Virus record (IMG/VR): IMGVR_UViG_3300031730_000018
Coordinates: 1-32,288 of that record
Length of the DNA: 32,288 nt
Source: a virus
Direction: 5' to 3' (one strand)
Part shown: positions 495-18,559 of the stretch, in pieces
Numbering within the stretch: position 1 is the stretch's first letter
Layout: every line of letters begins with the position of its first letter
Notes under the pieces: generated by a model
The model's input: only the letters and a program-made list of their open reading frames with translations
Database searches by the model: none
Told to the model about the DNA's origin: nothing
Program-made: the position numbers and the translations under genes

Positions 495-1703
495 TCAGGC
501 GACTCCAACGCGTGAGGCAAGGTCCCGAAGGTGCGCGCCGCCAGCATCCGCCCGCGCCCGCCGGAGCATCGCCCCAACCGTCTCCCGGACGACCGGCGAG
601 AGCCGGACCCGCTGCGGCGCTACCCGCTCCGCATTGACGAACTGGGCCAGCGCCTCGCCGTCCGCGCGGCGGGTCGCGGCGAGCGCGGAGCCGTACTTGA
701 TGTGGAACTGCGTACGGCGGGAGGTCGAAAGGATGCGCTGCGTATCGATGGCGCGGGCCATCTCAACAGCCTTGCCCGCCTCGCCACCCTCGAAGGCAAT
801 CGAGGCGCGCCACTGAGCCACGTTCGTCGGCCCAAAATTCATCTGCCCGAAGCCGCCGTCAGTCGGGTCCGCGCCGAGTGAATCGGCAGCGTCCTGCGCC
901 TCGGCGAGCCGGTCGCCCGCCGCCTCCTCGCGGCCGGAAACCGTCTCCGCCCACGCAGTAGTGAGCTGGAGCATCCCGTATGCCTGCCGGACGGCTGGAT
1001 TGGACAGGTGCGGCTGGAGTCGATCGGCGGTGGCCTCTGCGAGTTGCTGACCCACCGCCCGGCTCTCCGCTGGGAGCATGTGGAGCCGGGTGTACTCCGC
1101 GAGTCCAATCCACTCCCGCTCTCCCAGCGCTGAAGCGGCGAGGTGAGAACGCTCCGATGCAGACAGCGAGAGGTCGACGAACCCCAGGTACTTCAACACG
1201 AACGCTGCGTTGTGAGCAGTGAGCGTGAGCAACCGCAGCGCCTCGCTCCGGTCGGCTGCCTGCGGGTCGTGCGCCGCCGCACCAAGGTTCCGTAGCAACG
1301 GCGCAATCAGCGGGGCTGCGGACGAGTAGTCGCAGGTATGGCGGCAGTGCTGAAGCTGCTTGACGTCTGCGCGGAGCTGGTCGAGCGGGGCAGCCGAACG
1401 CGACGGGAGATCCAGGTACGCGAGCCCGATCAACGCTGCACGGATCTGGGGAATGGAGGCGAGCGCGCGGGCGTGCGGCGCGTCGGCAGGCGCGTACGGC
1501 TGGCCGGTGAGGTCAGCGGCTGAGACTTGGAGCGCGTCAGCGAGCCGGATCAGCGTGGAGCGCTTGTCGATCTCCTTGAAGCCGGACTCGATCTGGGAGA
1601 CGTAGCCCTGCGTCATTCCGGCCAACTCAGCGAGGGCCTTCTGGCTCAGGCCACGCTTGAGCCGCCAGTACCGGACGCGAGCACCCGCGAAGTCCTCCGC
1701 CAT
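495..1703 (-). CDS. XRE-family transcriptional regulator, host chromosomal
   Basis: A 402-residue protein. Residues about 8-65 form a classic Cro/CI helix-turn-helix, including LSQKALAELAGMTQGYVSQIE. The rest is helical and alanine-rich, resembling the TPR-like sensor half of Streptomyces/Micromonospora regulators of this length. It probably binds DNA as a dimer and controls neighbouring genes; the ligand is unknown. The start at ATG 1703 has a strong ribosome site (GAGGAGG) a few bases upstream. A small inverted repeat AGGT-ATAG-ACCT sits just before that and could be its own operator. The gene lies outside the prophage boundary at 1864, so it is not the phage repressor. Confidence 0.88.
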   Translation of the reverse strand: MAEDFAGARVRYWRLKRGLSQKALAELAGMTQGYVSQIESGFKEIDKRSTLIRLADALQVSAADLTGQPYAPADAPHARALASIPQIRAALIGLAYLDLPSRSAAPLDQLRADVKQLQHCRHTCDYSSAAPLIAPLLRNLGAAAHDPQAADRSEALRLLTLTAHNAAFVLKYLGFVDLSLSASERSHLAASALGEREWIGLAEYTRLHMLPAESRAVGQQLAEATADRLQPHLSNPAVRQAYGMLQLTTAWAETVSGREEAAGDRLAEAQDAADSLGADPTDGGFGQMNFGPTNVAQWRASIAFEGGEAGKAVEMARAIDTQRILSTSRRTQFHIKYGSALAATRRADGEALAQFVNAERVAPQRVRLSPVVRETVGAMLRRARADAGGAHLRDLASRVGVA

Positions 1704-2033: not shown

Positions 2034-3554
2034 ATGGTGACAGGCGTGGCCAGCATCGAAGAACGCCCGAGTGGACCGCGCGTCGTGTGGCGCCTCAACC
2101 GCCCAGGCGACCCGCTACACGGAAAGAAGCAGCACCTCGAATGCGACAACGACACCGTCGATGACGCTCTGAGCATCGTGGAAGGTCACCGCAGCCGGCT
2201 GACTCGCGACGAGGCAGAGGTACTGCTCCTGGGGCCTACCGCCATCGAGGAGCCACCCACGGCGCTGACCTTCCGCGAGTGGTGCGAGATATGGCTGAAG
2301 AGCAAGACGCGAATCTCTCCCCGCACCCGGCGCGACTACATGGGCCTGCTCGAAAACCGCATCCTGCCCGCTATCGGCGACACCCCCATTGACCAAATTC
2401 CGGCATCGGATATCGGCAAGTTCGTCAACAGCATGCGCGGGGAAGGCCTGTCCAACCGCACCATCACCCGGCACTACTCGGTGATCTTCCAGGCATTCGC
2501 GTCGGCGGTGAAGAACAAGAAGCTCGAAGAGAACCCGTGCGACGGCACCGACTTCGTACGGGACCAGGTCGCCGACGACGACCAAGGCGACGAGGACCAC
2601 GTCTACCTCACCCCCACCGAGTACCAGATCCTCTACCGCGCCGTCGCCCCCTCGTACCGAGACTTCGTCGAGGCCCTGGCAGGATCGGCCGGCCGGTTTG
2701 GAGAGGTCACCGCGCTCCAGCCACGGGACCGAATTGCGCCCACCCGCCGCGACCCTGCGCCAAGACTCCACATCCGCAGGGCCTGGAAGCAGGCCGAGGA
2801 CGGCTCGTACTACCTCGGTACGACCAAAGGCCGCGGGAAGCGCAAGAATATGATCGACGACGCGCTCGACCAGCTCCTGCTCCGATGCAGCAAAGGCAAG
2901 GACGCAGACGCGCTGATCTTCACCGCACCCAAGGGCGGCCGGATCAACCACCACAACTTCTACAACCGGGTTTGGCAGCCTGCCGTGATCAAGGCGATGC
3001 GCTGCGCTACCCATCCACCAGCATCCGAAGCCCTGCCGCTTGCCGAGCCTTCGGGCACCTGCGGAGACCATGGCGGCCTCAGCCGCGTCACAGGCCAACC
3101 CTGCCAACGCCGACACCTCGCGCCCGGCCTGAACCGGTGCGTGTGGCACGCCGGGCCCCCGCCGGATGCTGTGTCCTCTTGTGACTGCCCTGATGTGCTG
3201 CACCGCCGGCCAACGCCGCACGACCTTCGGCACACGTGCGCCGCCTGGATGCTGGAGGATCCGAACGTCGCGCCGCTGTACGTGTCGCGTTACCTGGGCC
3301 ACGCCAGCATGGAGGTCACGGACAAGGTCTACGCCGGCCTCATGCCGTCCGGCGAAGGCGCTGCAGTGAAGGCGATCGCAACAGCGCGTGGGCGCGGTCG
3401 CGCTCAATGTCTCCCGGTCATCAAGGTCAAGAAGGTACGGAAGGTCAGGGCGGGCCGGTCGATGGTCAGCCCCGCCAAGGGAACTTCGCACGATGCTGCG
3501 AGGCGGCGCGCTCGTCACCGACGACTGCAACGGGAGCCGGCCGTTGCTCGTTGA
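2034..3554 (+). CDS. int: Phage tyrosine integrase with Cys/His-rich insertion
   Basis: A 506-residue tyrosine recombinase that would integrate and excise the prophage at tRNA-Arg. An N-terminal arm-binding region is followed by a SAM-like core-binding domain (about 78-165) and a catalytic domain. The visible catalytic set is R221 (GRFGE), K265 (TTKGRGK), H396-x2-R399 (PHDLRHT), H423 (YLGHAS) and Y433. About 60 residues rich in Cys and His (324-385; C343, C357, H361, C369, H372, C383, C385) lie between the K265 strand region and the HxxR box. This is longer than in most integrases and resembles a zinc-binding module. The basic C-terminal tail (after about 450) overlaps the convergent membrane gene by 89 bp. 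The start is at an ATG with a weak ribosome site inside a palindrome; a GTG 12 bases on is an alternative. Confidence 0.95.
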   Translation: MVTGVASIEERPSGPRVVWRLNRPGDPLHGKKQHLECDNDTVDDALSIVEGHRSRLTRDEAEVLLLGPTAIEEPPTALTFREWCEIWLKSKTRISPRTRRDYMGLLENRILPAIGDTPIDQIPASDIGKFVNSMRGEGLSNRTITRHYSVIFQAFASAVKNKKLEENPCDGTDFVRDQVADDDQGDEDHVYLTPTEYQILYRAVAPSYRDFVEALAGSAGRFGEVTALQPRDRIAPTRRDPAPRLHIRRAWKQAEDGSYYLGTTKGRGKRKNMIDDALDQLLLRCSKGKDADALIFTAPKGGRINHHNFYNRVWQPAVIKAMRCATHPPASEALPLAEPSGTCGDHGGLSRVTGQPCQRRHLAPGLNRCVWHAGPPPDAVSSCDCPDVLHRRPTPHDLRHTCAAWMLEDPNVAPLYVSRYLGHASMEVTDKVYAGLMPSGEGAAVKAIATARGRGRAQCLPVIKVKKVRKVRAGRSMVSPAKGTSHDAARRRARHRRLQREPAVAR

Positions 3555-9549: not shown

Positions 9550-10431
9550 GTGAGCTACCAGGCCGTGCAATGGGCCCTCGATGAGGCGCCCATGCTGCGG
9601 ATGCCCACATCGGGGAAGCCGGACACCACCGCTCGCGGCGTCCTCGTCGCCCGCGCCGAGCGCGCCGACGAACACGGCCGTGACTCCCACGCCGCCGTCG
9701 AGGACATCATCTGGCGCACTGGGTACGACGAGCGCACCATCCAGCGCGCTGAGGACCGCCTGGAGGCCGCGCGGCTCATCGTCCGCGACGGCGTCACCCG
9801 GTTCGGGACCATCCGCTGGAACCTCGACCTGACCCAGCGCCGCGACCCTGCCGAGCGGGACGAAATCGAGGCCGCGATCGTCCGCCGCAAGGCTGACAAC
9901 GCGACCCGGGAACGCACCCGCCGCAGCCGCCAGCGCAAGGAGCGTGCCGACTCTGCGTCCACACGTGGGGACGCAGAAAACACACGTGGGGATTCTCCGT
10001 CCACACGTGCCGACTCTGGCTCCACACGTGTGGACGCAGCGCCCCCCGAACCACCCAGGAACCGTCCGGGAACCTCCCGGGGAACCACCCAGGAACCTCC
10101 CTCTGGGGGCGCGCCGCCCCCAGACCCCCGGCGGCCCCCGTCGCCTTCGGCTCCGGGGAACGAACAGGCCAAGTCACTGTCCGAACCACTCACCCCAGCC
10201 CAAGACCAAGAGAGCGACCCACTACCGCACGCGCACGCGAGCGACACAGCCCCGCCGCTGCGCCTGGTCGCCGCCAACGACCAGCCGGCCACCGACGGCC
10301 CACCACGCGGCATCTTCCCCATCCCGGTCCCGGGCCCCCGGCTCAGCCGAGCCGAGGAAGCCATCGCCGCCGCCACCGCCCGCCGTGAGGCCGCCCGCCG
10401 CGCCCACCAGGCCGACAGGACCACCGGATGA
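9550..10431 (+). CDS. Replication-initiator-like HTH protein
   Basis: A 293-residue protein. Residues 1-95 have the winged-HTH pattern of phage replication initiators (TARGVLVARAERADEHG, then the helices VEDIIWRTGYDERTIQRAEDRL). The rest is low-complexity, Arg/Pro-rich and probably unstructured. It starts at GTG 9550, preceded by AGGAG. By analogy with lambda O and DnaD-like proteins it may recognise the phage origin and recruit replication proteins; this is inference. The gene contains two phased DNA repeat arrays (9949-10040 and 10048-10097), as expected if the origin lies inside it. The helicase and ERF genes are upstream neighbours. Confidence 0.75.
   Translation: MSYQAVQWALDEAPMLRMPTSGKPDTTARGVLVARAERADEHGRDSHAAVEDIIWRTGYDERTIQRAEDRLEAARLIVRDGVTRFGTIRWNLDLTQRRDPAERDEIEAAIVRRKADNATRERTRRSRQRKERADSASTRGDAENTRGDSPSTRADSGSTRVDAAPPEPPRNRPGTSRGTTQEPPSGGAPPPDPRRPPSPSAPGNEQAKSLSEPLTPAQDQESDPLPHAHASDTAPPLRLVAANDQPATDGPPRGIFPIPVPGPRLSRAEEAIAAATARREAARRAHQADRTTG
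9949..10040. repeat. Four 21-bp-spaced CACACGTG iterons
   Basis: CACACGTG occurs at 9960-9967, 9981-9988, 10002-10009 and 10023-10030, exactly 21 bp apart each time. Around the octamer the copies share a GA(C/T)TCT-x2-G(T/C)TC left flank in three of the four. In protein they read as a 7-residue STR repeat. The 21-bp step is two helical turns, so all four sites face the same side of the DNA, as replication iterons do. Confidence 0.7.
10048..10097. repeat. Five helically phased GAACC repeats
   Basis: GAACC begins at 10048, 10059, 10070, 10082 and 10093, with steps of 11, 11, 12 and 11 bp, about one helical turn each. GAACCACCCAGGAACC is present twice (10048-10063 and 10082-10097). It lies directly after the CACACGTG array in the same gene. 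It could be a second protein-binding array or simply codon repetition for a Pro/Arg-rich tail. Confidence 0.55.
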
Positions 10432-13669: not shown

Positions 13670-14689
13670 GTGGCGGATCCGCTCTACTCAATAGGTGATA
13701 CGCGCGTGATCAAGTTCCTCGGTCGGCTGGCGAGACATCCTGCGGTGGGGGTCCCGCTGGCCATGTTGGCGGCGGCTGGCCTACTAGTCCTGCTGCTTGG
13801 GCCGGTTTCCTGGTGGGCCACGCCAGCCAAGCACCTGCAGGGCAAAGACAAGGCCGATGTCCGTAACGCCACACGGCAGATCGTTCTCGCCGCTGTAGGC
13901 GGCATGGTCCTTCTCACCGGTGCCGCGTTCACCGCACGAACCTTCTTCTTGACGCGTCGTGGACAGTTCACCGACCGCTACACAAAGGCAATCGGCCAGA
14001 TCGCGTCGGACAAACTCACCGAACGCCTCGGCGGCATCTACGCACTCGAACACCTGATGATCGAGTCCGAACGCGACCACAACACTGTAGTAGAGGTTCT
14101 CGCGGCGTTTATTCGCGAGAACGCCGAGTCAAACTCGGTCCACGGCGGGCCACCGACTCCTTCGACAGACATCCAGGCCGCTTTGACAGTGCTGGGTCGA
14201 CGCCCGGATCGTCCTGAGGCGAACTACCTAGACCTGCGCAACGCTGACCTCCGCGGCGCAAACCTGCAGGACGCCAGACTTGAAGGGGCAATCCTCAGAA
14301 GGGCCCAACTTCAGGATGCTGACATGACACTCGCCAGGTTGCAACATTCTGATATGAGACACGCTCAGCTACAGAAAGCCCGAATGGGGTACGCGGTGCT
14401 GCGGCGTGCGGATTTGACGCACGCCAACCTGGACGGTGCAATCCTGAGCAATACCTGGCTCCAAGGCACAAACTTGAACGAGACAAATGGGCTAGTGCTC
14501 GCTCAGCTGTCACAGTCATCAATCGACACACATACATATCTAGACCCGAGGCTTCTAGCGAAGCTGCGCGATGAGATATCCAGCGTTCACGACCTGGACG
14601 GCGTGGACCGCGTGCTCCTACGCAAAATCCGTGGGACACCACTGGATCGCCGTGATGAAGGGCCGCCGGAGTCAAGCTTGACTCCGTGA
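13670..14689 (+). CDS. Membrane-anchored pentapeptide-repeat protein 1
   Basis: A 339-residue protein with two transmembrane helices (about 26-48 and 70-93). Next comes a conserved juxtamembrane module (TDRYTKAIGQIASDKLTERLGGIYALEHLM and on to IQAALTVLGRRP, about 100-185). Nine or so pentapeptide repeats of the A(D/N)LxxA type (about 190-265) follow. The repeats fold as a right-handed square helix that mimics DNA in some families or binds partners. The anchor-plus-module form is widespread in actinomycetes with no settled role. GTG 13670 follows GAGGG. It sits between early and late regions with a paralogue next to it, as cargo genes do. Its repeats are more degenerate than those of the second copy. 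Confidence 0.85.
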   Translation: MADPLYSIGDTRVIKFLGRLARHPAVGVPLAMLAAAGLLVLLLGPVSWWATPAKHLQGKDKADVRNATRQIVLAAVGGMVLLTGAAFTARTFFLTRRGQFTDRYTKAIGQIASDKLTERLGGIYALEHLMIESERDHNTVVEVLAAFIRENAESNSVHGGPPTPSTDIQAALTVLGRRPDRPEANYLDLRNADLRGANLQDARLEGAILRRAQLQDADMTLARLQHSDMRHAQLQKARMGYAVLRRADLTHANLDGAILSNTWLQGTNLNETNGLVLAQLSQSSIDTHTYLDPRLLAKLRDEISSVHDLDGVDRVLLRKIRGTPLDRRDEGPPESSLTP

Positions 14690-14742
14690 CGATCTTTGTT
14701 CACGCTCGGTCCTGCCAGATTCTGCCCGCAGCCTGGTTGAGC
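14688..14742. repeat. 55-bp repeat, copy 1 (after pentapeptide gene 1)
   Basis: This segment, beginning GACGATCTTTGTTCAC and ending GGTTGAGC, matches 15844-15898 at 49 of 55 positions by eye. It overlaps the stop region of the first pentapeptide gene. The terminator hairpin that follows the second copy is degenerate here. The 14743-14855 gap after it shows no gene. Confidence 0.75.
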
Positions 14743-14855
14743 CTCACCGCTCCCGAACTGGTCCCCGTCTCGACGCTCGCCCGCACGGAGCCAGCGCTAC
14801 CCGACATCGGGACCGGGGCCTTGGTCTGGGTTGCGGCAGTCGTGTCCAATGAGCC

Positions 14856-15809
14856 ATGTCGAGTATCCGGAATCGCTACCGGGCCGCCCGTGCCGCATGG
14901 ACCACCGCCGGACACCCGCCAGCTCGGCCCCGGCCCGCAAGATCAGACTCCCGTGGCAGCCGGCGGCTACGCCCTCGCGCGAAGGCATCGGCTCCCGACC
15001 GGTGGCAGCGCGGCACCGCCATCGGCGGTTTTGTCTCGGTGCTGCTCGTCGCGGTCGGGCTGGTCCTGACGAACGACTTCAACCGGGACCAGTACCGCCT
15101 TCAGCAGGACAGCAATGAGGAGCAGCAGGAACTCACGCTGAACGGGCAGCGGGCCGACCGGTTCGTCAAGGCAATCGACCAGCTCGGCCAGGAAGGCAAC
15201 GACAAGCTGGGCATCCGGCTCGGCGGCATCTACGCCCTGGAAACGCTCATGCGCGATTCCAACAGCGATGAGAACACTATCATCGAGGTGTTGTGCGCGT
15301 TCATACGCACCCACGCAATCGATCCGGATATCCCCTTCACCCGCAAGGCGGTTCCCGTATCCCCGCTTGATGTCCGCGCCGCCCTGACTGTCCTCGGCCG
15401 TCGGCGCGAACCAGACCATCACACACGACTCGACCTCAGCAACACCCTGCTCGGTCTCGACCGTATAGACCTAAAAGGCGCGAATCTGCACGACGCGCAA
15501 CTGGTCGACGCAGACCTTCGCGGTGCCACGCTGGTCAACGCGGACCTGAGCGACACCACCCTGTCCAGCGCGGACCTGCGCGGCGCGGACCTGACCGACG
15601 CGGACCTGACCAACGCAGTACTTTTCCAAGCGGACCTGCGCGGCGCGCAACTGACCGGCGCGCACTTGAACGGCGCGAATCTGACCAGCGCGTACCTGCA
15701 TGATGCAGACCTGAGGTGTACAACGATGGATCGCTTAACGAAGTTGCCACTAGGGGTAGCGCGCTCAGACCCAGAGACCCTTAAAAGCCCGGAGTGCCAG
15801 CAGCCGTAG
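14856..15809 (+). CDS. Membrane-anchored pentapeptide-repeat protein 2
   Basis: A 317-residue paralogue of the gene before it. A basic N-terminus and one transmembrane helix (about 54-72) lead into the same juxtamembrane module (ADRFVKAIDQLG, LGIRLGGIYALETLM, VRAALTVLGRRR). Some 13 regular pentapeptide repeats follow (about 193-290; for example ADLRGADLTDADLTNA). It has one helix where the neighbour has two. ATG 14856 has a weak ribosome site, so the start is less sure. It is followed by a strong terminator. A duplicated origin for the two genes is supported by their shared 3' flank. Likely a lysogenic-conversion gene; the function is unknown. Confidence 0.85.
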   Translation: MSSIRNRYRAARAAWTTAGHPPARPRPARSDSRGSRRLRPRAKASAPDRWQRGTAIGGFVSVLLVAVGLVLTNDFNRDQYRLQQDSNEEQQELTLNGQRADRFVKAIDQLGQEGNDKLGIRLGGIYALETLMRDSNSDENTIIEVLCAFIRTHAIDPDIPFTRKAVPVSPLDVRAALTVLGRRREPDHHTRLDLSNTLLGLDRIDLKGANLHDAQLVDADLRGATLVNADLSDTTLSSADLRGADLTDADLTNAVLFQADLRGAQLTGAHLNGANLTSAYLHDADLRCTTMDRLTKLPLGVARSDPETLKSPECQQP

Positions 15810-15843
15810 GAGGCTAGGCGGCCAGACGGCAACTTGACGCCGA

Positions 15844-15898
15844 GACGATCATTGTTCACACTCGGTCGTGGCAGATTCTGCCCACAGCCCGGTTGAGC
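15844..15898. repeat. 55-bp repeat, copy 2 (after pentapeptide gene 2)
   Basis: Matches 14688-14742 at 49 of 55 positions. The last bases form the left arm of the terminator at 15885-15915. The copies are in the same orientation, 1156 bp apart, one gene unit. Confidence 0.75.
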
Positions 15899-15915: not shown

Positions 15916-16038
15916 TCGCCGTCTCCGGGGGGAAGTCGGAGCGCGGGAAGCTGATCCGGGCGGGCTACAGTCGCAGGACCGTGGCCTACCCGGATCGGGC
16001 ATGGAGAGGGCGAGAGAGCGCTCTCACAGCTGGGCCAA

Positions 16039-16061
16039 CACCGGGCCCTCGCGGGCCGGTG
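16039..16061 (-). terminator. Hairpin after the 85-aa minus-strand gene
   Basis: CACCGG-G-CCC pairs with GGGCCGGTG around TCGC, nine pairs with one bulged base, directly after the stop codon at 16063-16065. A 12-bp palindrome GAGAGCGCTCTC lies further on at 16014-16025. Confidence 0.55.
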
Positions 16062-16062
16062 G

Positions 16063-16320
16063 TCAGCTCCAGCGGATCAGGTGCCGGGCTTCCCCGCCGA
16101 TAACCGGGGCCAGGTCCTCGTCCTCGGGTGTGACCCGGTGCCTGAAGGCCGCAGGCTCGGCCCGGAAGTCGTCCTCCTCGATCAGCTCGGCGATGGCCTC
16201 TGCCAGCTCTTCCTTGGTGAGGCTGGCCGGCTGGGCGATCTCGCTGATCGGCACCCACTGGCCGAACCGGCCGTTGTACGCCTCGACGATCTCGGTGATG
16301 ACTGCTCCTGTGCTGCGCAT
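16063..16320 (-). CDS. Small acidic protein, divergent from HTH gene
   Basis: An 85-residue protein from ATG 16320, with GGGAGG six bases upstream; a longer frame to 16431 lacks this and runs through the operators. It reads as a small winged-helix-like or helical fold (ITEIVEAYNGRFGQWVPISE, then KEELAEAIAELIEEDDFRAEP) with a clearly acidic middle. The pattern hints at a degenerate DNA-binding wing, but I do not recognise the family. It faces the 81-aa HTH gene across an operator array, so the two probably form one regulatory circuit. Confidence 0.65.
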   Translation of the reverse strand: MRSTGAVITEIVEAYNGRFGQWVPISEIAQPASLTKEELAEAIAELIEEDDFRAEPAAFRHRVTPEDEDLAPVIGGEARHLIRWS

Positions 16321-16334
16321 CTCTGGCCTCCCTT

Positions 16335-16453
16335 GCTTGTTCCCTGCTGATGGAACAAGCATATGCCTAACGTAAGGCCTAACGCAAGGCCCAACGTCGG
16401 GCAATGTTCCCGGGCCGCACGCCTTGCGCATGGCCTCACGTTAGGCCTAGACT
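16335..16453. promoter_or_regulatory. Divergent promoters under a 12-bp-spaced operator array
   Basis: Five 14-bp near-palindromes, GCCT-AACG-type, start at 16365, 16377, 16389, 16421 and 16433, spaced 12 bp within clusters of three and two. A perfect inverted repeat GCTTGTTCC/GGAACAAGC with 8-bp loop lies at 16335-16360. A rightward promoter fits TTGCGC (16424-16429), 18 bp, TAGACT (16448-16453), seven bases before the ATG at 16460, so that mRNA is probably leaderless. A leftward one fits TTGCGT (16387-16382), 18 bp, TATGCT (16363-16358). Both -35 boxes lie inside array units. Confidence 0.75.
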
Positions 16454-16459
16454 GAGTGC

Positions 16460-16705
16460 ATGAGCGCACACGACACCAGCAAGCTGCAGGACCTCGGCCG
16501 CCGCCGCCAGCGCCTGGAGGCGCAGCTCTCCGAGGTCGACGCAGCCCTGGACGCAGAGATCGCCGCAGCCGCAGCCGCCAACGTCCCCCAGGTCGACATC
16601 ATCAGCTGGACCGGCCTGTCCAGGGAGAGCGTGCGCCGCAAGAGCATGGACGAAGCCGGCCGCGCAGCACTGCGCGAGGCACGAAAGGCCAAGAAGGTTT
16701 CTTAA
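16460..16705 (+). CDS. Small coiled-coil/HTH regulator
   Basis: An 81-residue protein. The first about 40 residues form a coiled coil (LQDLGRRRQRLEAQLSEV). The second half has an HTH-like stretch (VPQVDIISWTGLSRESVRRKS) and a basic tail. This is the plan of small actinomycete DNA-binding proteins that dimerise through an N-terminal helix. It is likely the ligand of the adjacent operator array and autoregulates; that is inference. There is no ribosome site, but a -10 box seven bases upstream implies a leaderless transcript. It sits just before the terminase genes, so late-gene control is possible. Confidence 0.7.
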   Translation: MSAHDTSKLQDLGRRRQRLEAQLSEVDAALDAEIAAAAAANVPQVDIISWTGLSRESVRRKSMDEAGRAALREARKAKKVS

Positions 16706-16779: not shown

Positions 16780-17295
16780 ATGGCAGGAGGACACGCACCC
16801 GTCACCGACGAAGACCGCCGCCGCGTCGCCGAGCTCCACGCCCAGGGCCTCAGTCGCAACGCCATCGCCACCCAGCTCGGCCGCTCCGGCCGCACGATCT
16901 CGCGGATCTGCGCCGAGCACCAGCCACCGCTGACGTTCGAGCGCACCCGTACCGCGGCCGCCACCGCCGCGAAAAAGGCGGACGGTGCCGCGCGCCGCGC
17001 CGCGCTCCAGCTGGACGCGCTGGAGAACGCCGGCCGGCTGATGGGTCAGATGTTCGCCCCCAGCGTCGTCTACAACTTCGGTGGCAAGGAGAACGACTAC
17101 AACGAGCGCTCGGTGGATGAGCCGCCGTTCCGCGACAAGCGGGACATCGCTACCGCGATCAAGGCCCTGGCCGACACCGCGCTGAAGCTGGCCGAGTACG
17201 ACAAGGCGACCGGGCACGAGGACGAGAAGGGCATGCTGGGCGCCCTGTTCGACCAGCTCCGCGAGGCCCGTGACGGCCGCAAGGACGGCACGTGA
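16780..17295 (+). CDS. terS: Terminase small subunit
   Basis: A 171-residue protein with an N-terminal homeodomain-like HTH (about 8-46; VAELHAQGLSRNAIATQLGRSGRTISRI) and a helical C-terminal part for oligomerisation. Small terminases bind the phage packaging site and hand the DNA to the motor. The next gene begins within its stop codon and is the large terminase, which supports the call. The downstream order portal, MuF, scaffold and capsid is the usual late cassette. Confidence 0.85.
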   Translation: MAGGHAPVTDEDRRRVAELHAQGLSRNAIATQLGRSGRTISRICAEHQPPLTFERTRTAAATAAKKADGAARRAALQLDALENAGRLMGQMFAPSVVYNFGGKENDYNERSVDEPPFRDKRDIATAIKALADTALKLAEYDKATGHEDEKGMLGALFDQLREARDGRKDGT

Positions 17296-18559
17296 GCGGC
17301 CTCAGGGGCCTGGCGATGTCCGAGAAGCAGATCGACTTCGCGCTCGACTCCGACGCGTTCGTCAACCTCGCCGAGGGCGCCGTCCGGTCGGGCAAGACGA
17401 TCTCTGGCCTGCTCCGGTACGCCCAGTACATTGCCAACGAGGCACCGAAGAGCGGCGATCTGGTCGTGTGCGCGAAGACGTACGACACCGCGGTCCGGAA
17501 CATCTTCACCCGCTCCGGGACGCCGCGGTGTTCGGGCCGCTGGCCAAGGCAACCTCGTACACACGTGGCGCGCCGACAGCGATGATCCTCGGCCAGCAGG
17601 TCGACGTGATCACGTTCAACGACGAGCGCGCCGAGGGCCGCCTGCGCGGCATGACCTCGCGGGGCGCGTACGTGGACGAGTGGTCGCTGATGCCGCGCAC
17701 GTTCCACGAGCAGCTCCTCGGCCGGCACTCGGTGGACGGCAGCCAGATCTTCGGGAACACCAACCCGGACAACCCCCGGCACTGGCTCAAGACCGAGGGC
17801 ATCGACCAGGCCCAGCCCGGCGGCCGGCTGGCCGGCGACTGGAAGGTCTGGCACTTCGGCCTGGACGACAACCCCGGCCTGTCCGAGCGGGTCAAGGAGC
17901 GCTACCGCCGCCAGTACACCGGCCTCTATTACCGGCGGAACATCCTCGGCGAGTGGTGCGTGGCCGAGGGCACCGTGTACGAGTCGTGGGACCCGGCCCG
18001 GCACGTGGTCAAGACCCTGCCCGGCATCGTCCGCTGGGTCTCCCTCGGCGTGGATTACGGCACGACCAACCCGTTCGCTGGCCTGCTGCTGGGTGTCGGT
18101 GTCGACGGCCGGATGTACCTGGCGCGCGAGTGGCGCTGGGACAGCAAGAAGCAGCAGCGGTCGCTGACCGACGCCGCGTACTCGGCCCGGCTGAGGGCCT
18201 GGCTCGACCAGCTGGGCGTCCGCCCGGACTGGGTCTGCGTCGACCCCAGCGCGGCCAGCTTCACCACGCAGCTGTTCCAGGACGGGCTGATCCCCACCCC
18301 GGCCGACAACAGCGTCCTGGACGGCATCCGGCTCGTGGCGTCGCTGCTCGCCGAGGGCCTGCTGTACGTGCACGAGTCCTGCGCCGGCTGGATCGAGGAG
18401 ATCCCCGGCTACGTCTGGGACGAGAAAGCCGCCTTGCTCGGAGAGGACAAGCCCGTCAAGGTCGGCGACCACAGCCTGGACGCCGGCCGGTACGCGATCA
18501 AAACCCCCGAGATGCTGTGGCGGCCACTCGTACGTGGCGCCTTGGACCTGGCAGCTTGA
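17292..18559 (+). pseudogene. terL: Terminase large subunit with one frameshift
   Basis: The packaging ATPase/nuclease, about 422 residues if restored. The first part reads from GTG 17292 with Walker A GAVRSGKT. The rest reads in the -1 frame: FGPLAKATSYTRGAP, Walker B AYVDEWSLMP, then nuclease-domain LGVDYGTTNPF, CVDPSAAS and HSLDAGRYA. The frames must join near 17511, where TTCACCCG is followed by CTCCGGGAC; one base seems lost there. The N-frame alone stops at 17585 after nonsense sequence. No -1 slippery heptamer is present. Either the prophage cannot package DNA or the assembly has a one-base error. Its stop abuts the stop of the reverse-strand gene that follows. Confidence 0.88.

Follow-up and report, generated by a model that had tools for sequence, protein, structure and literature searches.

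The window analysed here, that is, the whole 32,288-base IMG/VR record, represents a prophage of soil actinobacteria. Its terminase region matches Streptomyces phages such as Eastland and SV1 at ~66-68%, and relatives of its small terminase gene (terS) are carried by prophages of Actinoplanes, Micromonospora and Salinispora. Immediately before the terminase genes lie two small divergent genes separated by an array of palindromes (Table 1). One encodes an acidic protein (P0001; pI 4.5, charge -9), modelled by AF2 as a winged helix (pLDDT 89); the other encodes a basic protein (P0002; pI 9.8), modelled as a long helix (residues 7-39) followed by a helix-turn-helix (HTH; 44-62) at pLDDT 88. The translations agree with the sizes given for both genes in an earlier, sequence-only reading of this DNA. 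The HTH gene and terS are co-directional and 74 bp apart.

Table 1 Features of the divergent gene pair and its surroundings in the window
Feature	Position	Strand	Basis
Repressor-like gene	495-1703		phrog_5823
Integrase	2034-3554		
Hairpin just past the acidic gene, terminator-like without T tract	16032-16064	-	folding z -2.8
Acidic gene of 85 aa (P0001); winged helix predicted, cargo role presumed	16063-16320	-	translation, AF2, 60% homologue L003
Perfect inverted repeat (9-bp arms, 8-bp loop) over -10 and start of P_acid	16335-16360	.	
Predicted acidic-gene promoter (P_acid), TTGCGT-N18-TATGCT; palindromes over -35 and spacer	16358-16387	-	23/30 matches
Putative operator cluster A: three overlapping 14-bp near-palindromes, 12-bp steps	16365-16402	.	
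Putative operator cluster B: two overlapping 14-bp near-palindromes, 12-bp step	16421-16446	.	
Predicted HTH-gene promoter, TTGCGC-N18-TAGACT; leaderless start at 16460	16424-16453	+	read from sequence
81-aa coiled-coil and HTH gene (P0002), presumed autorepressor	16460-16705	+	translation, AF2, 57% homologue L044/L045
Small terminase subunit-like HTH gene (terS), adjoining the cassette but outside it	16780-17295	+	phrog_5536, 5.6e-60
Large terminase subunit, outside the cassette	17270-18559	+	terminase families

Palindromes and promoters between the two genes

The near-palindromes of cluster A occupy 16365-16378, 16377-16390 and 16389-16402, and those of cluster B 16421-16434 and 16433-16446; in this order they differ from GCCTNACGTNAGGC at 0, 1, 2, 3 and 0 positions, and nowhere else in the window is GCCTNACGTNAGGC matched with fewer than 2 mismatches. 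The five near-palindromes in two 12-bp-spaced clusters reported by the sequence-only reading were thus recovered at their positions, and the array exceeds chance in simulations: one three-step array is present in the window, against 0 in 100 order-3 Markov windows of the same composition, in which doublets averaged 0.45. The 12-bp self-match upstream of the P0002 gene is 13/14, a level reached by 0.26% of background 150-bp windows. Among 2.9 million IMG/VR viral contigs, the array consensus GCCYAACGTTRGGCCYAACG has one exact match, in a prophage of Actinoplanes italicus. The looser pattern TRGGCCYARCGNNRGGCCYA matches in 5 of 300 Micromonosporaceae genomes; among these, double sites that overlap are confined to the same Actinoplanes italicus locus (L044).

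The predicted promoter 30-mer of the acidic gene (TTGCGTTAGGCCTTACGTTAGGCATATGCT, read from 16387 to 16358) and that of the HTH gene (TTGCGCATGGCCTCACGTTAGGCCTAGACT, 16424-16453) agree at 23/30 positions against a background maximum of 18, and each predicted promoter is nearly an inverted copy of the other. A consensus promoter scan returned none at 9/12, and the boxes over the array are weak ones below the threshold of that scan. Six nucleotides separate the -10 box from the ATG of the HTH gene, the mRNA of which looks leaderless. As had been claimed, the palindromes overlie the -35 boxes of divergent promoters, although the promoters themselves are predictions. The 9-bp perfect inverted repeat described earlier (GCTTGTTCC-N8-GGAACAAGC, arms 16335-16343 and 16352-16360) is likewise present but is not rare, with 14 comparable repeats in the window against about 4 expected. 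It was dropped as a signal by itself, being not significant, and is retained as a possible second operator; it was not seen in L044.

A second cassette and the family of the putative regulator

The closest homologue of P0002 (57% identical) is encoded in the Actinoplanes italicus genome (G006) at L044, where its gene diverges from that of a 92-aa P0001-related protein. P0001 and the 92-aa protein are only 28% identical (E 4e-4), so the kinship of the acidic proteins in the two paired loci is judged partly from their position; a P0001 homologue from phage L003 matches the 92-aa protein at E 3e-7 in a small database. In L044 the intergenic sequence TTAGGCCTAGCGTTGGGCCCAACGTTGGGCCTAA has an array built in the same way, and another cluster lies at the HTH promoter. 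The predicted L044 promoter equivalent to P_acid reads TAGCGT-N18-TAAGCT and agrees with P_acid at 23/30 (background maximum 18). A strong hairpin (z -8) ends the L044 HTH gene.

This locus lies inside the IMG/VR-called prophage IMGVR_UViG_2728369518_000002, the terS of which (L009/L034) is related to that of the window (62%). There, the cassette lies about 24 kb from terS and is flanked by a phrog_5823 repressor gene and an endolysin gene. The complete pair with its array was found at only these two loci, and none of the related terS loci or prophages examined has the pair before terS. Because a related prophage has this layout at another position, we regard the pair as an acquired cargo unit and not as a timer of late genes; the best reading of the sequences is that the two-gene unit moves as a cassette. 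This upholds one of two earlier suggestions, that of an acquired two-gene regulatory system: the pair, array and promoter layout recur elsewhere, and prophages with related terS genes lack the pair.

No match to P0002 was found by tblastn against phages, plasmids or viral_contigs, and relatives other than L003 were reached only by profile searches of whole genomes. The profile of P0002 relatives matches 45 of 300 Micromonosporaceae genomes at E <= 1e-6 and, across the class, 5 of 394 genomes at E <= 1e-5. In the upstream regions of nine core-clade HTH genes, the leading repeat offset is 12 bp (summed z 8.4), followed by 24 bp (3.8). With the window omitted and a real genomic background, no offset other than 12 bp is enriched (z 3.9; the maximum over offsets has resampled levels of 3.0 at 95% and 4.2 at 99.9%). 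The offset is clear in about half of the core-clade loci, weak in L060, L061 and L087, and not clearly present in L062 and L064; distant HTH members (the ext set) have no single preferred repeat offset. Array sequences vary by locus (CCTAGTACTAGGCCTAGTGCAAGGCCTAG in L059, GCCTAGCGCTAGGCCTAGTGG in L061, GCTTTGCATAGTGCTTTGCATG in L063), as do the adjoining genes, which, as read from their sequences, are mostly unrelated partners. The operator design therefore appears to accompany the regulator and not the neighbouring gene, and because regulator and array design appear to travel together we assign the array to P0002.

Two variants within the family were also observed. The HTH relatives in L063 and L087 have an altered recognition helix (SRVTVAK) and TGTAAAG/TTTGCAT arrays in place of GGCC arrays, a paired change that is a possible handle on operator specificity. 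In L047 (1495-2082), a P0002-like HTH is fused to a longer protein, a GCCTAGCGCTAGGC palindrome lies at the promoter, and the next gene reads as a nucleotidyltransferase.

The acidic protein and a host two-gene operon

The P0001 model matches Zalpha, MarR, IscR and many other winged helices at Z about 7; the winged helix is a common fold, and these matches say nothing on function. Searches by tblastn against phages, plasmids and genome_contigs returned no match to P0001. Calmodulin matches of its profile (E about 1e-4) were rejected, as the model is a winged helix in which no EF-hand loop is seen, and SIMPL, Rio2_N and similar Pfam matches fell below cut-off and were likewise rejected.

Phage L003 carries a homologue 60% identical to P0001, whose gene stands by itself ahead of a terminase gene; it has a terminator of its own and no HTH gene beside it. 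P0001 also shares 40% identity over 62 aa with the C-terminal domain of L039. In chromosomes, the P0001 domain lies C-terminally in proteins of about 200-260 aa; it is present in 183 of 300 Micromonosporaceae genomes. The next same-strand gene after the domain-bearing protein encodes an AAA/HerA-type ATPase in 35/35 loci, these being the best-scoring ones, with some places counted twice; its profile matches are PADLOC mad8 (5e-19) and Pfam DUF87 and AAA_22. The resulting two-gene operon of winged-helix protein and ATPase, PADLOC mad8-like, was seen at L039-L043, L111 and L112-L141. In L142-L144, the domain occurs at other places, within short proteins and after an MGGRGS-type start; the L142 and L144 proteins are 60-64% identical to the host ATPase-linked domain.

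These relationships allow P0001 to be read as a phage-borne copy of one domain of a widespread host system, released in a burst at infection under the HTH autorepressor and acting as a decoy or modulator. The host winged-helix and HerA-type ATPase system would then possibly be a defence system, and the domain would have been captured independently by several mobile elements (P0001, L003, L044 and the L142-L144 fusions). We consider such a role for P0001 improbable.

Two shorter motifs near the acidic genes were noted. A perfect palindrome, GAGAGCGCTCTC, lies at 16014-16025 in the window and at 1130-1141 in L003; its standing as a palindrome specific to acidic genes is weakened by its presence in three unrelated loci (L069, L080 and L090). 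A CACACTCGTTAGGT-like motif occurs in L003 at 1160-1183 and 2943-2970 in opposite orientations, once upstream of the acidic gene and once upstream of the gene that follows the terminase.

A proposed model for the cassette and its alternatives

We propose that the pair is probably an acquired accessory cassette of the moron type, with an autorepressor HTH protein and an acidic cargo. Dimerisation, DNA binding, repression, timing and a cargo role are what we infer for the cassette proteins. In this scheme, P0002 most likely dimerises via its 33-residue N-terminal helix, and its dimers would bind the overlapping palindromes with neighbours 12 bp apart. At each of the divergent predicted promoters the array spans the -35 box and the spacer, so that bound P0002 would silence its own gene and the acidic one at once. 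Early in infection, until repressor has accumulated, a burst of expression from both genes would be expected, and in the lysogen both would be kept at a low level, with the acidic protein, a predicted winged helix, as the cargo.

Several other arrangements were weighed. A bistable switch resembling cI/Cro, with P0002 on the 12-bp array, P0001 on the 9-bp inverted repeat over its own promoter and each shutting off the other, would accommodate the DNA-binding folds predicted for both proteins, the 26-bp dyad over -10/+1 of the acidic gene and the two operator clusters, one at each promoter. We nevertheless consider it unlikely, given that the inverted repeat is absent in L044, that a charge of -9 is unusual in a DNA binder and that partners are unrelated at most HTH-clade loci. 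A toxin-antitoxin or addiction pair, in which one protein is toxic, the other neutralises it and the array mediates conditional autoregulation, would suit a small two-gene unit with autoregulatory-looking operators, and could draw on the fused HTH relative in L047 and its nucleotidyltransferase-like neighbour. Yet the genes are divergent without co-transcription, neither P0001 nor P0002 has a toxin or antitoxin family match in profile scans or fold-match lists, although such an absence is no proof, and the L003 acidic gene stands with its own terminator and no HTH gene; we judge this arrangement very unlikely. Even less credence is given to P0002 as an activator or dual regulator at one promoter, with only one promoter repressed: the clusters are of unequal length, and upstream clusters can serve activation, but the palindromes are placed alike at both predicted promoters, over -35 and in the spacer, where a bound protein should exclude polymerase.

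The sequence-only reading had also suggested a late-gene timer, in which the HTH protein governs the downstream terminase operon, and the short distance and shared direction of the HTH gene and terS fit that idea. The second cassette, however, is distant from terS and adjoins repressor and endolysin genes, the pair is missing from related terS loci, and there is no visible late-gene target, as the array motif was found nowhere else in the window with fewer than 2 mismatches; we hold the timer to be the least probable of the arrangements weighed here. P0002 does not look like the immunity repressor of the phage either, since it is not of the repressor family (phrog_5823) and its operators are not common to the repressor region. 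The array motif is absent from 495-1703, in agreement with the earlier view, drawn from sequence as ours is, that the pair is independent of the immunity switch.

The cassette has parallels in described systems. In acr-aca modules, inverted repeats lie in the core promoter, with proposed autorepression by a small HTH protein (PMC9410906). Similarly, the cassette joins a small accessory gene to a small HTH gene on a mobile element, with palindromes inside the predicted core promoter of the accessory gene. It differs in that its genes are divergent and not in one operon, its operators form an overlapping 12-bp array where acr-aca modules have one or two repeats, and its cargo is not a known anti-CRISPR. 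No Aca match to P0002 was found in PDB (E up to 1), Pfam, NCBIfam or PADLOC, all of them general libraries, and no Aca family was among the fold matches, although such an absence is no proof. By analogy, the cassette would work like an acr-aca module, but it is not classed as one because the one-operon feature is lacking and an anti-defence function of its cargo would be hypothetical. The claim that no example had been described holds for the family, of which no description was found in the literature searched, but not for the logic, which is known from acr-aca modules and from KorA.

KorA, the IncP plasmid repressor, is likewise a small HTH protein of a mobile element that represses as a homodimer and has a short palindrome as operator; the consensus of that operator spans 12 bp and KorA dimerises through a C-terminal domain (PMC4889941), whereas P0002 would dimerise by its N-terminal helix and its operators overlap in a row. 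KorA is among the weak fold matches of P0002 (Z 3.7-3.9). P0002 was not listed against the KorA/TrfB profile (PF16509), and the clade member L046 scored 15.3 bits, below the curated cut-off of 26.7. TrpR, the dimers of which can bind side by side on operator DNA according to the title of PDB 1trr, is a weak fold match (Z about 5), too weak for kinship, and the cassette has no ligand or aromatic amino-acid link. The Micromonosporaceae winged-helix/HerA operon is the counterpart of the acidic gene; P0001 is homologous to the C-terminal domain of its winged-helix protein but consists of this domain only, with neither the N-terminal domain nor the ATPase gene.

Our analysis has three implications: (i) It defines a family of very small putative autorepressors in actinobacterial mobile elements that are associated with overlapping palindromes at a fixed 12-bp step. 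(ii) Since operator design appears to travel with the regulator, the array could serve as a probe for accessory genes in phages and integrative elements, much as anti-CRISPRs were discovered by way of Aca genes. (iii) It connects the presumed cargo protein of a phage with one domain from a winged-helix/HerA-ATPase host operon that is common in Micromonosporaceae.

Two further repeat-rich regions were observed in the window. Just before the cassette, the region 13670-15898 holds pentapeptide-repeat genes at 13670-14689 and 14856-15809 in tandem. A direct repeat of 82 nt (82% identical) overlaps the end of the former (14661-14742) and recurs directly behind the latter (15817-15898), so that the region is an apparent tandem duplication. 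At 9943-10046, direct and inverted repeats cluster around CGTCCACACGTG/CACGTGTGGACG, possibly marking another operator or a replication site.
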